Assembly: GCA_943788725.1 (NCBI GenBank)
Contig: CALSRJ010000002.1
Coordinates: 124,001-188,000 of the forward strand
Direction: 5' to 3'
From: an uncultured Flavobacteriales bacterium
GTDB taxonomy: Bacteria; Bacteroidota; Bacteroidia; Flavobacteriales_G; Salibacteraceae
Length of the DNA: 64,000 nucleotides
Shown: in pieces, positions 14,399 to 63,088 of the stretch
How positions within the stretch are numbered: the first letter of the stretch is position 1
Layout: each line of letters starts with the position of its first letter
The notes under the pieces: model-generated
What the model was told of the DNA's origin: nothing
Seen by the model: the letters and a program-made list of their open reading frames with translations, nothing else
The model's database searches: none
Program-made: the position numbers and the translations under genes

Positions 14399-15010
14399 AT
14401 GGAGGTAATTGTATTCACCTCGCAGCACAAAACCGAAGCTGAAACCCAGCGTGTGATTCAACTCTTCGAGGGTGGGTTAGAAACGCTTCTCATTCGCAAG
14501 CCCAAATGGACCGGTTCAGAGGTAGAGGCATTTATCGAAGCCATTCCGCAGGAATTCAGAAAACGCATCGTAGTGCACGGCAACTATAACCTAGCCTTTA
14601 AGTACGGGTTAAAAGGAGTTCACTTGCGGCGACGCCATCGAACAAACAAGCTTAGGAATCGCATAAAGCGGTTGATCTTTAAACTCCGAAAGCCCAACCT
14701 GGTTATCTGTACCACCTTCAACAGCCTAGAAAGCCTTCGGGACAATCAACAATCCTTTGACTTCGTTTTTCTTAACTCCGTTTTCAGCAGTCACTCGCAT
14801 TACAGTAAAAGTGAGGAAGCTGGATTGAACATGCTTCGATCAATCATCGTTAAATCGAGCACACCCGTTTACGCCCTTGGCGGTGTGCGCCCCGAGCACA
14901 TTGCAGTAGTCAAGGCGGCCGGCTTCGATGGTGTAGGTCTCTCCTCCTTCGTGTGGAAGTCAGTAGATCAAAGCGCGGGTAAGGTCATCTCGATCTTTAA
15001 GGCCGCCTGA
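14399..15010 (+). CDS. ThiE/TenI-like thiamine phosphate synthase homologue, diverged
   Basis: A 203-residue TIM-barrel protein of the ThiE/TenI superfamily. The R-K pair of the pyrophosphate region (LLIRKPKW), a GVHL strand end, ICTTFNSLESL, FVFLNSVF and YALGGV align with ThiE landmarks. Several ThiE substrate residues seem replaced: the NDR motif is VVHGNYN, the GVHLGQxD motif is GVHLRRRHR, and the PTxTK loop is SSHSHYSK. It may therefore be a TenI-like protein or have a changed substrate. Its stop codon directly abuts the stop of the TPP-riboswitch receptor gene on the other strand, so a thiamine role is reasonable but not shown. Confidence 0.75.
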   Translation: MEVIVFTSQHKTEAETQRVIQLFEGGLETLLIRKPKWTGSEVEAFIEAIPQEFRKRIVVHGNYNLAFKYGLKGVHLRRRHRTNKLRNRIKRLIFKLRKPNLVICTTFNSLESLRDNQQSFDFVFLNSVFSSHSHYSKSEEAGLNMLRSIIVKSSTPVYALGGVRPEHIAVVKAAGFDGVGLSSFVWKSVDQSAGKVISIFKAA

Positions 15011-17443
15011 TCAAATCCTGATCTTCAGTCCTAGCAACCAGTTAATGCCTGCCTGAGGATAGTAGAAATTTTCCGTGATCATTTCCTCATAGATGTAGCT
15101 GTACGTATATCCATTGGAAGCGTACATCGCATTTGCCACATTGTTGATCAGCAAAGTCCATTCGAACCGCTGAATCATGGGCAATGAAGATCGATAGCTC
15201 AGTCGAAGATCATTTACAATGTATGGATCAATGCTTCTTTCTGCTTGTTGCGTATTGTCTAGGTATTGCTTTCCTACATACTTCGTCAAGAGCGCAACTT
15301 CAAATCCGAAATTGCTCTTGAATCCAAGTTGTGACCCTGCAATGATGGAGGGAGAAAAAGCGATGTCGACATTTTCATGTGGAACCCGAACCTCTTCATA
15401 GGTAGCATAATCGATGATGACTTCTTCGAACGCTTTGATCTTGTTCTGACTCCATGTCAAATTTGGAGACCAAAAGAATCCGCTTGAGTGCATCAAGTTT
15501 ACCGCTAGCTCTGCCCCCGCCCTATAGCTGTTTGGAACGTTCGTTCTTACGGGAGCGCCAACATCATTTACTTCTCCTGTGAGCACGAGTTGATCTTTGT
15601 AGTGCATGAAGTAACCGTTCAAAGAAATATTGAATACCGGGCGATTCCAGCTCCATCCCGCTTCCACATCGGTCATGAATTCTGGCTGAGGAGTAACACC
15701 AGGAGTAGCATCGATAAAATCGCTGCGCACAGGTTCACGACTGCCCCTTGCCACCGACGCATAGATCAAGTTGTTTTCCGGCAACTGGAAACTCGCACCT
15801 CCCTTTGGGTTGATGAATACGTATTGTTGATCTACGGAGATCGGACGCTGATCATTATCCAAGCCGCTCGTCTTGTAGTCAATGAATCGCCCCTGCACAT
15901 CTCCAAATAACGTCAAACCATCCAGCGACCACTCAGCCTTTAGGTAAGAAGACCCATCCACCTTGTCAGCATTGGAAGAATAGTATTGCTTTCGTATATC
16001 TATGTCGGTAGCGATCTCGGACCACATCACCTCGCCAAAGTGATCACCTAGGTATCGACTCAACCCTCCGCCAAGGGTCATCTGAAGTGCATTCTTTCTG
16101 TACTGAAGTGAGTAGACCCCTCCAAAGAAGTGATTGTCAAGCCACCTTCTCACGATGATGTCAGAGGAATATATGCTATCGCCTTGGACCACTTGAGGAT
16201 CAATACCATAATCTACAAAGTCATCGTCTGCCTTAAACTGTTCGAAGAATCCCTTTCCTCGGGTATAGTGCCCAGTTACATTTACATATAAAGACGGCGA
16301 AAGCTGCCATCCACTGATCAATTGATAATGGTCTTGGCCATAGTTGTCGATCTCGTTGTCGTATTGATAGAAATTGTAGGTCCTTCCGCTCTCCAACAAA
16401 TTCACCGTTTGTTCCGCACTGAGGGAGTTTCGGCTGGCAAAATCGAGCATTTGGTCTACATCACCCGAAATGCGGGATGCGGGTGTGCCGTACCATGCTT
16501 GCTGTGTCATTTCATCGCCCGAAAAAGCGATGGCCTTTACCATCAACTGCTTCCCATAATATCCTCCTGACAAATAATAAGAACTCAAGGAAGAAGCACT
16601 TCGATCGATGTAACCATCGGAAGCAATGTAGGAGAAGCGCCCTTCGGCATTGAAGTGCTCATTAAACATTCCTGTATTGACCACAGCATTGTGCCTTCTG
16701 GTCTGAAAAGATCCATAGCTGTTATTGACTTCAACGAATGCATTTGAATCAATTCCAGACGTTTCAAGGTTCACCGAGGCGCCAAAGGCTGCCGCCCCGT
16801 TCGATGACGTTCCAACGCCTCGTTGAATCTGAATATTCTCTGTAGATGAAGCGAAATCCGGCATATTGACCCAGAAGACACCATGAGACTCCGCATCATT
16901 GAGTGGCACTCCATTCACCGTGACGTTGATGCGTGTCGCATCAGATCCTCTGATCCGTATGCCGGTGTACCCCACCCCTGCTCCGGCGTCTGAAGTCGTT
17001 ACGGCCGAAACCGTTTGGTTCAACAAAATCGGAAGGTCTTGGGCTAGGTTGTTTTGATCCAAGGCCTCCTTGTCTAGGTTTTGGTAAGTCATGGGAGTAG
17101 CCGCGCCTGCTCGGGTGGCCTCTACGATGAACTCCTTACTCAGCAATGGACTGATCTTGAGTCGATGGTCGATGATCATGTCTCCTTCTACCTCAACGGT
17201 ATCCACTCCAATCTTGTAGCCTAGGTGCTCTACGATGATGACGTAATTACCTGGCTTGATTCGAAGCGTGTAGACGCCTTGTCCATTGGTAACTGCTCCA
17301 AGTAAGGAACCATCGATATGCACCACCGCCCCTCCCAGCATTTCGCCGGATTGACTGGTGACCCTGCCAGATACCGTGGCTTGGGCAAATGCAAGATTTG
17401 CGGTAAACAGAAAACAAAAAAGTGTGAAAAGGCTCCTTTTCAT
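15011..17443 (-). CDS. TPP-riboswitch-controlled TonB-dependent receptor, likely thiamine uptake
   Basis: An 810-residue outer membrane receptor with a signal peptide (ending NLAFAQ), a CarboxypepD_reg-like domain (about 22-105, with GQGVYTLRIKPGNYVI), a plug domain (about 115-225, with GYTGIRIRGSDATRINVTVN) and a beta-barrel ending LLGLKIRI. A TPP riboswitch lies directly upstream on the same strand, so expression should fall when thiamine pyrophosphate is plentiful. That regulation, known for the OMR1 class of thiamine receptors in Bacteroidota, indicates import of thiamine or a precursor. Homology alone would not give the substrate. The ATG at 17443 follows a small inverted repeat (17445-17464) by one base, a site where translation could be blocked. 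Confidence 0.9.
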   Translation of the reverse strand: MKRSLFTLFCFLFTANLAFAQATVSGRVTSQSGEMLGGAVVHIDGSLLGAVTNGQGVYTLRIKPGNYVIIVEHLGYKIGVDTVEVEGDMIIDHRLKISPLLSKEFIVEATRAGAATPMTYQNLDKEALDQNNLAQDLPILLNQTVSAVTTSDAGAGVGYTGIRIRGSDATRINVTVNGVPLNDAESHGVFWVNMPDFASSTENIQIQRGVGTSSNGAAAFGASVNLETSGIDSNAFVEVNNSYGSFQTRRHNAVVNTGMFNEHFNAEGRFSYIASDGYIDRSASSLSSYYLSGGYYGKQLMVKAIAFSGDEMTQQAWYGTPASRISGDVDQMLDFASRNSLSAEQTVNLLESGRTYNFYQYDNEIDNYGQDHYQLISGWQLSPSLYVNVTGHYTRGKGFFEQFKADDDFVDYGIDPQVVQGDSIYSSDIIVRRWLDNHFFGGVYSLQYRKNALQMTLGGGLSRYLGDHFGEVMWSEIATDIDIRKQYYSSNADKVDGSSYLKAEWSLDGLTLFGDVQGRFIDYKTSGLDNDQRPISVDQQYVFINPKGGASFQLPENNLIYASVARGSREPVRSDFIDATPGVTPQPEFMTDVEAGWSWNRPVFNISLNGYFMHYKDQLVLTGEVNDVGAPVRTNVPNSYRAGAELAVNLMHSSGFFWSPNLTWSQNKIKAFEEVIIDYATYEEVRVPHENVDIAFSPSIIAGSQLGFKSNFGFEVALLTKYVGKQYLDNTQQAERSIDPYIVNDLRLSYRSSLPMIQRFEWTLLINNVANAMYASNGYTYSYIYEEMITENFYYPQAGINWLLGLKIRI

Positions 17444-17444
17444 A

Positions 17445-17464
17445 GCTCATTTTTTAAGTTGAGC
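17445..17464 (-). repeat. Inverted repeat at the receptor start codon
   Basis: On the minus strand GCTCA and TGAGC flank a ten-base A-rich spacer and end one base before the ATG. It may be part of the riboswitch output that hides or exposes the ribosome entry region. Confidence 0.4.
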
Positions 17465-17465
17465 C

Positions 17466-17483
17466 GACCGAGGAGTACCGGTC
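17466..17483 (-). repeat. Hairpin in riboswitch expression region
   Basis: GACCG and CGGTC on the minus strand can pair around an 8-base loop (5 bp stem). No run of U follows, so it is not a classical terminator. A second, A/T-rich hairpin lies upstream: CAAAATCA-CGTC-TGATTTTG at 17486-17505. Confidence 0.4.
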
Positions 17484-17504
17484 TACAAAATCAGACGTGA
17501 TTTT

Positions 17505-17589
17505 GCCGTCTTCCTTCCAGGTATTACCCTGGCAGGTTCAGTGGGTATGATCTCAGATTCCTGTTCACACAAGAAACACCCCAGTCAGC
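17505..17589 (-). ncRNA. TPP riboswitch (THI element)
   Basis: On the minus strand the conserved core is clear: CTGAGA (17551-17556) followed by ATACCC, GAACCTG, and a P5 hairpin CCAGG-GTAATA-CCTGG around the GGTAATACC box (17520-17528). P1 can form between GCTGACT (17583-17589) and AGACGGC (17505-17511) with one mismatch; P2 pairs GGGTG with CATACCC; P3 pairs TTCTTGT with ACAGGAA. The element binds thiamine pyrophosphate. The 3' P1 strand (AGACG, 17507-17511) can alternatively pair with CGTCT just downstream (17493-17497), which gives a mutually exclusive fold. It controls the TonB receptor at 15011-17443. Confidence 0.95.
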
Positions 17590-17611
17590 TATTGGAATAA
17601 AAGAACGTGCG

Positions 17612-18211
17612 CTAGGCCGTGGCCTTCTTGCGCGGTAATAATCTATTTCGCTTCAAGCTTTTGTTGATGCGCTCAATGCGCTCTTCCGTAGTACCGTCAA
17701 CTTCGATGAAACGCTTACCTGCTTTGATCAGGGCCTTCTTGTAAAGATCATAGAAGTCTTCGCGATCATCTGGATTTTCTCTTAGGTCATCGTACTCCCA
17801 ATCGATCCCTTTGGAACCGCAGAGGATGTACAATTGGTATGGCTTTTCAAGAAACTGGCGTTCGATCCAATTCTGAGCACGCCCAAAGCGGACCTCCGCC
17901 CAAATCTTCACTACCAGCGTATTCGTATCACAAATGAGAAAGTGATTGGCATTTTCAGCTACGACATATTCACGTTCTAGTTGCCCCTTGGCAATCTCTA
18001 ATAAATCGTCTTGATTGTAATTTCTTCCGAGTTGTTCGAGGTACTCCCTTGAGAACTCATCCACAAAAGGTTCGTTCCAATGCTTCGCTAGCGCTTCAGC
18101 TAAGGTTGTCTTACCTGTACATTCTGGGCCCACCAATGCCAACTTTACCAGCTTTTTATCCCCAGCTCCGTTTCTCGAAAGATTCGAAAGGTCTGTCTCT
18201 TCTTGCTCCAT
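17612..18211 (-). CDS. NadR/AAA_28-like ATPase or kinase
   Basis: A 199-residue P-loop protein. The Walker A motif is GPECTGKT (residues 28-35), and the pattern EFSREYLEQLGRNY plus ICDTNTLVVKIWAEVRFG matches the ribosylnicotinamide-kinase-like domain of NadR (AAA_28). In Bacteroidota such proteins often sit beside PnuC-type transporters, where a kinase traps the imported vitamin. Here it lies directly before the TPP riboswitch and after a thiamine-binding protein gene, so the phosphorylated substrate could be thiamine or nicotinamide riboside; the sequence does not decide. No PnuC or PnuT gene is next to it. The C-terminus is basic (KRNRLLPRKKATA). Confidence 0.82.
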   Translation of the reverse strand: MEQEETDLSNLSRNGAGDKKLVKLALVGPECTGKTTLAEALAKHWNEPFVDEFSREYLEQLGRNYNQDDLLEIAKGQLEREYVVAENANHFLICDTNTLVVKIWAEVRFGRAQNWIERQFLEKPYQLYILCGSKGIDWEYDDLRENPDDREDFYDLYKKALIKAGKRFIEVDGTTEERIERINKSLKRNRLLPRKKATA

Positions 18212-18283
18212 GCTACCATCAATTTACCGGTCAGATGTACCGGCCGCTCGGAATGTAGGACGTCCACTTCCCAAACGAGAGCA

Positions 18284-18291
18284 CAAAATTA
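18284..18291 (-). promoter_or_regulatory. Possible -7 box for the NadR-like ATPase gene
   Basis: The minus strand reads TAATTTTG, an exact TAnnTTTG match, 72 bases before the ATG at 18211. A TTTTG lies 13 bases upstream of it, which is short for a -33 element. Confidence 0.35.
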
Positions 18292-18330
18292 CTGAAATAA
18301 TATCCAAAAGCTACCCGAGGATTTAGGATT

Positions 18331-18594
18331 CTAAAGGTCCCGAGCGGTCCCTTTCAAGTTGGCTCCCAACACTTTCAAAACAAACACAGATTTACCATGG
18401 TTTTGCCAAGCCGATTTCATTCCCGAACGCAATCCTTCAAAGATGGCGTCAAAGTCGCCAAACAGATGGGTTGCAGTCTCGTTCACGCGCACCTCAAACC
18501 CCTCACAGGCCTTCAAGTGAGTGATAAATGCTATGATGGGTTCTTCATACCCCTCCTTCAAAGGATACATCGATATTTCAACGGTAGTTTCCAT
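18331..18594 (-). CDS. Thiamine-binding protein, YkoF/MTH1187 family
   Basis: An 87-residue ferredoxin-like-fold protein (METTVEISMYPLKEGYEEPI...KVLGANLKGTARDL) of the small thiamine-binding family, which binds thiamine or HMP in archaea and bacteria. It probably acts in the cytoplasm as a buffer or partner of thiamine uptake. Its ATG follows the urocanate hydratase stop codon with no base between them, so it is translated from the same message as hutU, while the next gene (the NadR-like ATPase) starts 119 bases later and may have its own promoter. The nearby TPP riboswitch and receptor support the thiamine reading. Confidence 0.8.
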   Translation of the reverse strand: METTVEISMYPLKEGYEEPIIAFITHLKACEGFEVRVNETATHLFGDFDAIFEGLRSGMKSAWQNHGKSVFVLKVLGANLKGTARDL

Positions 18595-60812: not shown

Positions 60813-63088
60813 TTTCCTTGCTTTTGACGTGTCTGTGCGTCCACTACGGAGATGGTAATCATGTTGACGATCTCTCTAACGGAGCTGCCCAATTGCAGGA
60901 TGTGCACGGGTTTTTTCATGCCGAGCAAGATGGGTCCAATCGCATCCCTTCCGCCCATCTCCTGCAAGAGCTTGTAAGCAATGTTACCAGCAGAGAGGTT
61001 AGGGAAAATGAGCACGTTCGCACGTTTGCCTGCCAATTTTGAAAACGGGAATATGTCATCCACCATCTTGGTGTTGATCGCGAAGTTGGCTTGGATTTCT
61101 CCATCAACTACCATATCTGGATACTTGTCGTGCAAAATCTTAACGGCATTCCGCACCTTGACGGCTTCGTCACCGTCGGTACTTCCAAAATTGGAATAGC
61201 TAAGCAATGCGATACGGGGTTTCAAGCGGAACCGCTCGACGGCCTCATGCACAAGAACGGTGATATCCGCCAACTCTTCAGCCGATGGGCTGTAATTAAT
61301 GGTGGTATCTGCTAAGAAAAGTGGACCCTGCTTGGTAATGATCACAAACATTCCTGCGATCTTACTCACTTTAGGATCCGTACCAATCACCTGCAGCGCA
61401 GGCTTAATGGTTGCGGGATAATTCCGAGTAAGTCCTGAAATCATGGCATCCGCATCCCCTGCTTCCACCATTGCGGCTCCGAAGTAGTTGCGCTCGTGCA
61501 TGATCTTGCGCGCTTCACTTAGCGTAAAACCACGACGCTTACGGTTGTTGTACAACTGTGTAGCATAACGGTTCCGGCGTGTATTCTCCACCGACTCTCG
61601 AGGATCCAATATCTGGATATCAGAAAGGTCCAAGCCATGCTCTTCGATCAGTGCATTGATTCGTTCTTTGTTTCCGAGAAGAATAGGAATGACAACACCA
61701 TCTTCCCGAGCTATTTGCGCTGCTTTTAAAATCTTGTAGTGGTCTGCCTCTGCAAACACAACGCGTTTTGGTGATCTTCTCGCTTTTTGTGTAATGCTTT
61801 GGATCAATTTATTATCCAACCCGAGGCGCTGATCCAGCGTTTCACGATAAGCATCCCAATCTTCGATCGGATGCTGAGCTACTCCACTGTCCATAGCGGC
61901 TTTAGCCACAGCAGGTGCCACGGTCGTGATCAGTCTATAATCCAAGGGCTTCGGAATGATGTATTCTGTTCCAAAGGCAATATTGGTCTCACCATAGGCG
62001 ATTGTCACTTCGATTGGCACTGGTTCCTTGGCCAAATCAGCGAGTGCCTTAACCGCCGCAAGCTTCATCTCTTCGTTGATGGTAGAAGCGCGGACGTCTA
62101 ATGCACCCCTAAAGATGAATGGAAACCCAAGCACGTTGTTCACTTGGTTTGGAAAGTCGCTTCTACCTGTGGCCATGATGATATCCTTACGAGCTGCAAT
62201 GGCAACGTCATAAGCGATTTCTGGATCCGGATTGGCACAAGCGAATACGATCGGATTCTTGGCCATCTTTTTGAGCATCTCCTTGGTAACGATACCCCCT
62301 ACAGAAAGACCCAAAAACACATCTGCACCATCCATGGCGTCGGCCAGGGTTTTCTTTTTGGTCTTGGCTATGAATTTGGATTTAATGTCGTCCAGGTCGT
62401 CTCGACTATCTGAAATGACCCCCTTACTATCTACCATGAGAATGTGCTCTGGCTTCACACCTAGGGACTTGTAGAGGTTCACACAAGACACCGCAGCAGC
62501 TCCTGCACCGCTTACGACCACCTTTACCTTTTCAATTTTCTTTCCCGCAATCTCCAGTGCATTCAGCAAGGCCGCACTCGATATAATCGCAGTGCCATGC
62601 TGATCGTCATGCATGATTGGGATATTGAGCTCCTCTTTAAGGCGGCGTTCTATTTCAAACGCCTCTGGAGATTTGATGTCTTCCAGGTTGATTCCCCCGA
62701 AGGTAGGAGCAATCGCTTTTACGGTATTCACGAATAGATCTACGTCCGTAGCATCGACTTCAATATCGAAAACATCAATATCTGCGAAGATCTTAAACAA
62801 CAAGCCCTTGCCCTCCATCACCGGCTTGGAAGCCTCTGGCCCGATGTTACCTAATCCCAAAACCGCCGTACCATTCGAGATTACGGCCACTAAGTTCCCT
62901 TTCGCAGTGTACTTGTAGACATCCTCTTTCCTTTCCGCTATAGCGAGACACGGCTCCGCTACCCCTGGAGAATACGCCAAGCTTAGGTCTCTTTGAGATG
63001 AATAAGGTTTGGATGGCACAACCTCTATTTTGCCTGGTCTTCCTAACGCATGGTAGTCCAATGCATCCTGCTTCTTTCGCTTCTTCAT
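60809..63088 (-). CDS. maeB: NADP-dependent malic enzyme with phosphotransacetylase-like domain
   Basis: A 759-residue enzyme that converts malate to pyruvate and CO2. The N-terminal malic enzyme domain (about 1-420) has [12 protein letters not shown], the [14 protein letters not shown] segment, HDDQHGTAI with metal ligands and [11 protein letters not shown] for NADP. The C-terminal phosphotransacetylase-like domain (about 430-755) has [16 protein letters not shown] and lacks acetyltransferase function in characterised MaeB proteins, where it is regulatory. The ATG at 63088 gives [19 protein letters not shown]; the longer start at 63139 is not conserved. It is the first gene of the maeB-ruvA-sprA operon. 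Confidence 0.95.

Follow-up and report, generated by a model that had tools for sequence, protein, structure and literature searches.

How might thiamine (vitamin B1) be taken up and retained by a bacterium in which a TonB-dependent receptor gene, placed beneath a riboswitch of the thiamine pyrophosphate (TPP) type, is accompanied by a NadR-like gene and by no transporter gene? The question is raised by a stretch of 64,000 nucleotides, hereafter the window (G000:C2:124001-188000), in the genome of an uncultured Flavobacteriales bacterium (2.93 Mb, 99% complete), of which the nearest named relatives found are metagenome bins of Flavobacteriales and Salibacteraceae. The window cluster would supply the outer-membrane and trapping steps of a thiamine salvage pathway. 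When TPP is low, the riboswitch would permit production of the receptor, through which thiamine would cross the outer membrane; a permease of the PnuC type, with its gene on another contig (G000:C1:219514-220053), would pass it across the inner membrane; the NadR-like kinase (17612-18211) would phosphorylate it to thiamine monophosphate (TMP), trapping it; and ThiL (G000:C6:174200-175192, 306 bits) would add the second phosphate to give TPP. This whole scheme of riboswitch-controlled receptor, remote PnuC, NadR-like thiamine kinase and ThiL is quite probable, and it is likely that the single-domain NadR-like protein is the main thiamine kinase of the thiamine auxotrophs of this class and thereby a third, non-orthologous alternative to thiamine pyrophosphokinase (TPK) and ThiK.

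The genes and the aptamer of this scheme are present in the genome, in which neither ThiC nor TPK (PF04263) has a match; the organism probably cannot make thiamine, and it seems to live on external vitamin B1. The co-distribution of these genes was computed in a class-level sample of 139 genomes, 138 of them at 90% completeness or more and 5% contamination or less. Single-domain NadR-like proteins were counted from matches of at least 82 bits, all remaining matches being below 35 bits, and the matches of G038 and G079 each fell in two pieces. Bifunctional NadR matches were excluded (G044:C3 and G122, tested for two-domain structure; G157:C43 and G084:C22, judged by open-frame length), so that 73 NadR-like less bifunctional G122 left 72 single-domain. 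PnuC (PF04973) gave 97 genomes at E 0.001 and 96 above the cut-off, the sub-cut-off match of G097 not being counted as PnuC. TPK is present in 27 genomes, ThiC in 44. Among the 112 genomes that lack TPK, the NadR-like gene occurs in 69 of the 75 without ThiC versus one of the 37 with it (p 6e-22), and when a single genome was drawn from each family, 500 times over and with G146 (family not shown) handled as a separate family, the largest p was 1.9e-7. PnuC accompanies the NadR-like protein in 72/72 genomes, lying less than 2 kb upstream on the same strand in 58 (bifunctional G122 and G044:C3 removed), and the 96 PnuC genomes divide into 70 with the NadR-like protein only, 21 with TPK only, two with both and three with neither. 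Both a ThiC-only state and a ThiC-less state with NadR-like protein and PnuC are seen within each of four families (f4, f13, f37 and f44); thus the association is not due to shared ancestry only. Among the 41 nearest genomes (the near set, own genome counted in), the sole genome with TPK, G040, is one of the nine without a NadR-like protein.

The NadR-like protein stands in for TPK in this distribution, as it might if it were itself a one-step thiamine pyrophosphokinase that converts thiamine directly to TPP, ThiL being kept for another route. ThiL is found in 41/41 near-set genomes, and because it is there whether or not TPK is, its presence does not discriminate. Two points speak for the two-step scheme instead: all genomes searched retain ThiL, which would be needed alongside a TMP-making kinase, and the related domain of NadR, described as a ribosylnicotinamide kinase (PMC7221760), transfers a single phosphate. 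A one-step enzyme is therefore unlikely.

The gene context of the kinase points to thiamine. The cluster consists of the following features, given by position in the window:
14399-15010, plus strand: TenI/ThiE-like protein, convergent with the receptor (PF02581 TMP-TENI, 64.1 bits)
15011-17443, minus strand: TonB-dependent receptor, by context a thiamine receptor of the OMR1/OMthi type (PF00593, PF07715 and PF13715 above cut-off)
17494-17593, minus strand: TPP-type riboswitch aptamer (RF00059, 50.8 bits, model positions 1-105, E 1.2e-8 in a 1.4-kb search)
17612-18211, minus strand: NadR-like single-domain P-loop kinase, predicted thiamine kinase (AAA_28, 117.7 bits)
18212-18330, minus strand: gap of 119 nt where the sister genus (L148) has pnuC (read in three frames)
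18331-18594, minus strand: YkoF/Thiamine_BP-like small protein (YkoF, 18.3 bits, cut-off 21)

The first-pass annotation of the window had listed thiamine-binding, NadR-like and convergent ThiE-like genes, and all three are there at the scores given above, that of the YkoF-like protein being below its cut-off. At the 72 NadR-like loci, mostly read with about 4.5 kb on either side, thiamine markers are frequent: a TPP match at 26, a receptor at 21, a ThiE-like gene at 19, a YkoF-like gene at 11, and any of these at 43. Of the 32 near-set genomes that possess the NadR-like gene (own included), 26 have it upstream of a TPP match at a distance of no more than 160 nt; such adjacencies in relatives were counted by hand. 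From distribution and gene context together we infer both the substrate and the product of the predicted kinase.

The protein was called a NadR-like ATPase in the first-pass annotation; NadR-like it is, but judged by its fold, residues and distribution it is more probably a small-molecule kinase than an ATPase. Its AlphaFold model (17 sequences, mean predicted local distance difference test score 90.5) has as its best structural matches the ribosylnicotinamide kinase (RNK) domains of NadR (PDB 8x7f, 6gyf and 1lw7; Z 22.0 to 19.4, with 176 residues of 8x7f aligned at Z 22.0 and a root-mean-square deviation of 2.2), followed by thymidylate and deoxycytidine kinases at Z of about 15. Catalytic residues (the P-loop, D95, D141, R144, R150 and R178) are common to 91 single-domain and six bifunctional sequences, and fold and residues together make it a P-loop small-molecule kinase of the NadR-RNK fold. 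The resemblance extends to location, NadR domains too being often found beside PnuC. The single-domain proteins differ in having A/S54, Y65 and W104, where NadR has mostly G, L/F/M and Y/F, and in a neighbourhood of thiamine rather than NAD genes. Only the RNK part of the NadR model TIGR01526 is matched (89 bits versus a cut-off of 341), the NMNAT domain being absent, and the protein is not classed as NadR; the bifunctional proteins of L133 and L140 show both domains.

A common fold does not reveal the substrate, and it might be supposed that the NadR-like protein works with PnuC in the salvage of nicotinamide riboside, their place beside a thiamine receptor being coincidental. The family names suggest this, as do the shared catalytic residues and the score of the genome's own PnuC, which is above the cut-off of a nicotinamide riboside transporter model. 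Against it stand the missing NMNAT domain, the occurrence of the NadR-like protein where ThiC and TPK are lacking, and the thiamine markers at 43/72 NadR-like loci versus 0/4 bifunctional-NadR loci, a small control. Nicotinamide riboside salvage is thus very unlikely for this pair, and thiamine phosphorylation remains the preferred function.

Two fusions of the kinase were seen in passing. In G084 (L141:3163-4608) a NadR-like kinase is fused to an aldose 1-epimerase-like domain. In G091 (L134:3769-5889) it is fused to DUF4301, a domain of unknown function, and G123 has an open frame of the same length; a DUF4301 gene also follows directly after the NadR-like kinase gene in Maribacter antarcticus (L193:1241-2773), making the DUF4301 protein a candidate for a further thiamine-salvage protein.

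The riboswitch had been described as clear, and its conserved core, invariant across 28 aligned rows (own and 27 relatives), and its full-length covariance match to RF00059 bear this out, but its 50.8 bits are below the Rfam gathering score of 54.3, so that it is not picked up at the gathering threshold. In the near set RF00059 has a match in 39/41 genomes and exceeds the gathering score in 12/41; because the window element scores under a curated cut-off that so few of these genomes pass, we call it TPP-type. The genome holds no second TPP match (E 5.7e-9 for this one). From the stop codon of the NadR-like gene it is 18 nt to the beginning of the aptamer, whose other end is 50 nt upstream of the start codon of the receptor; thus it can control the receptor, and not the two genes upstream. 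Regulation of the receptor by it is predicted, with a direction that would follow low TPP, and folding of the leader (one sequence, no control) gave no clear expression platform. The receptor itself, which has TonB barrel, plug and CarboxypepD domains directly below the aptamer, shows the arrangement of barrel and plug beneath a TPP riboswitch that defines OMR1/OMthi, and with its thiamine-linked neighbourhood it has held up as a strong candidate for thiamine uptake. A further covariance model, R1, contains just 10 base pairs and is for that reason mostly a sequence profile, and some sequences found with it at NadR-like loci and in the own genome and wider set were members of its training set; its weak match at 61866-61968 of the window (12.9 bits) was taken as chance.

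As the first-pass annotation stated, no PnuC open reading frame appears in the list for the window stretch read. Locus L148 of the sister genus (G015) runs from urocanase through YkoF-like, PnuC, NadR-like, TPP and receptor to ThiE-like. The window has the same order minus PnuC, with the 119-nt gap at the PnuC position, in which no pnuC remnant or open reading frame was recognised by eye in three frames; L253 and L254, from two more members of the window genus, have the same order without PnuC. The further suggestion of a gap or an unusual route at the inner membrane finds no support: a PF04973 search of the genome found one PnuC-family gene, on C1 (167.1 bits, above cut-off), which rules out a genome without a transporter, and relatives of this protein lie in TPP/receptor clusters. 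It had been anticipated that a pnuT or pnuC gene elsewhere under its own TPP riboswitch would close the gap; the gene is indeed elsewhere, but it lies between OmpA-like and Sua5 genes with no TPP match at its locus (Rfam genome search, R1 model). Rfam searches at the solitary PnuC of eight relatives gave nothing but a tRNA, and R1 scans at solitary PnuC in the own genome and the wider set gave nothing convincing, a 9.4-bit match at L166 being taken as chance.

A profile of the PnuC clade of the window genus was searched against named genomes, and the 80 best of the 124 loci found were analysed. A TPP match is present at 27/80, in 26 cases on the same strand as PnuC and no more than 3.2 kb from it, and absent from 53/80; a TPP riboswitch or thiamine genes at the locus, by which PnuT is recognised, are thus found at 27/80 related loci and not at the own PnuC, which, because the thiamine markers are not at its locus, is filed as PnuC-family, probable thiamine permease. 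PnuC, NadR-like gene, TPP match and receptor stand in tandem at 11/80 loci, and the own PnuC is 45-56% identical to these 11 proteins and joins them in one 43-row clade (0.968). Among the loci with a TPP match are those of eight Gammaproteobacteria, where PnuC follows the match at a distance of 2.2-3.0 kb, and at the one such locus checked (L189) the open reading frame below the match encodes a TonB receptor. Since TPP/receptor/PnuC clusters, with the NadR-like gene in the tandem sets, also occur among the relatives of its branch, the PnuC branch of the window genome is probably a thiamine branch whose own copy is solitary, and thiamine is the substrate we infer for this permease. Relocation of the sister-genus cluster gene does not explain the solitary copy: the two PnuC proteins are about 30% identical, versus 76% for the NadR-like proteins of the two clusters, and they belong to different branches, the own PnuC falling in a 16-row clade (99/97) of the window genus with G014, G017, G022b, G023 and G032, apart from the G015-cluster PnuC. 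A different vitamin as the cargo of the solitary PnuC, with thiamine entering by an unknown inner-membrane route, is highly improbable: its locus without riboswitch beside OmpA-like and Sua5 genes, its residues near the last helices (by eye, W..W...N and EAHK versus W..W...D and VTRK in the sister genus) and the presence of both PnuC types in G022 favour the idea, but it is the only PnuC of its genome, all 72 genomes with a NadR-like kinase have a PnuC, and it groups with the tandem-cluster proteins.

Several observations weigh against the salvage scheme and the kinase assignment proposed here. Six genomes with neither ThiC nor TPK are also without a NadR-like protein (G054, of 0.5 Mb, G063, G087, G125, G146 and G150), and no kinase was found among the scanned neighbours of PnuC in G063 and G150. 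Conversely, G068 has ThiC and a NadR-like protein, and G091 and G123 have ThiC, TPK and a NadR-like protein together. No thiamine marker was seen within the stretch read at 29/72 NadR-like loci. In the kinase tree, six bifunctional NadR domains and seven single-domain proteins share a 13-row clade (0.859), so that sequence alone does not separate the functions. The own PnuC has no riboswitch, is distant from the sister-genus cluster protein and scores 76.3 against the NCBIfam nicotinamide riboside transporter cut-off of 42.45. Finally, the thiamine searches of the own genome were limited to ThiC, TPK, ThiL, PnuC and TPP.

Other neighbours of PnuC and of the cluster deserve mention. In a Spongiibacteraceae bin (L247:4119-5934) PnuC and a YkoF-like gene are followed by an APH/ThiK-like kinase gene (99.5 bits to TIGR02721, cut-off 299), an order which indicates that the slot beside this PnuC can hold a kinase from the same superfamily as an established thiamine kinase. 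A 2OG-Fe(II) oxygenase-family gene directly precedes PnuC at L193:6191-8502, where it follows a TonB receptor gene and an NMT1/THI5-like gene comes next after the pair, and at L192:4633-5403; possibly the oxygenase processes a thiamine-related compound. PnuC of an Ignavibacteriota bin (L186:7585-8514) overlaps an open reading frame of 309 aa for which neither Pfam nor NCBIfam gave a match at E 0.001. At L133:973-4561 a TonB-receptor-like open reading frame, PnuC and two-domain NadR stand in a row, and L169:815-4443 is similar (its receptor is split in two, and length was the basis for calling its NadR); these sets might possibly serve outer-membrane uptake of nicotinamide riboside. The YkoF-like protein has a relative (L146) that exceeds the PF01910 and PF07615 cut-offs. 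The TenI/ThiE-like protein scores 49.1 bits against the ThiE equivalog TIGR00693 (cut-off 145.1) and is not classed as ThiE; its nearest solved chains are 3ceu and TenI 1yad. Its gene is retained in a genome without ThiC, and in other families its relatives directly precede PnuC and NadR-like genes.

Escherichia coli converts thiamine to TMP and then to TPP by ThiK (YcfN, of the APH family; model TIGR02721) and ThiL, the same two steps as are predicted here. ThiK is of an unrelated family, the window kinase having the NadR/AAA_28 fold, and a ThiK-like kinase holds the slot in L247. The thiamine uptake set of Bacteroides thetaiotaomicron, comprising OMthi (OMR1), PnuT and Tnr3, is known (PMC5613172), and it is alike in its TPP-riboswitch TonB receptor, PnuC-family inner-membrane permease and thiamine-phosphorylating enzyme, the last predicted from genes in our case. 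B. thetaiotaomicron has Tnr3 and ThiC, whereas the window genome has neither TPK nor ThiC and a NadR-like kinase instead, with a permease gene that is far off and without a riboswitch. A 2019 reconstruction names ThiK, ThiM and ThiN as signature salvage enzymes for B1 and assigns NadR to nicotinamide riboside (PMC6593275). No NadR-like thiamine kinase was found named in an open-access literature search, an earlier mention in subscription work being possible; such kinases would be hidden because sequence models recognise in them no more than an AAA domain or a portion of NadR.

Inability to make B1 has been described for most aquatic bacterioplankton (PMC10881298), and according to a metatranscriptome study of 2025 the B1 uptake transcripts of Baltic Bacteroidetes are dominated by omr1 and pnuC (PMC12442306). 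In our class-level sample, 69 of the 95 ThiC-less genomes have the NadR-like protein and no TPK, so that their route from thiamine to TPP would show a hole if judged by TPK alone. If the NadR-like protein is the thiamine kinase of these bacteria, their metabolic reconstructions and auxotrophy calls would change, and so would the way in which PnuC is annotated in their genomes.

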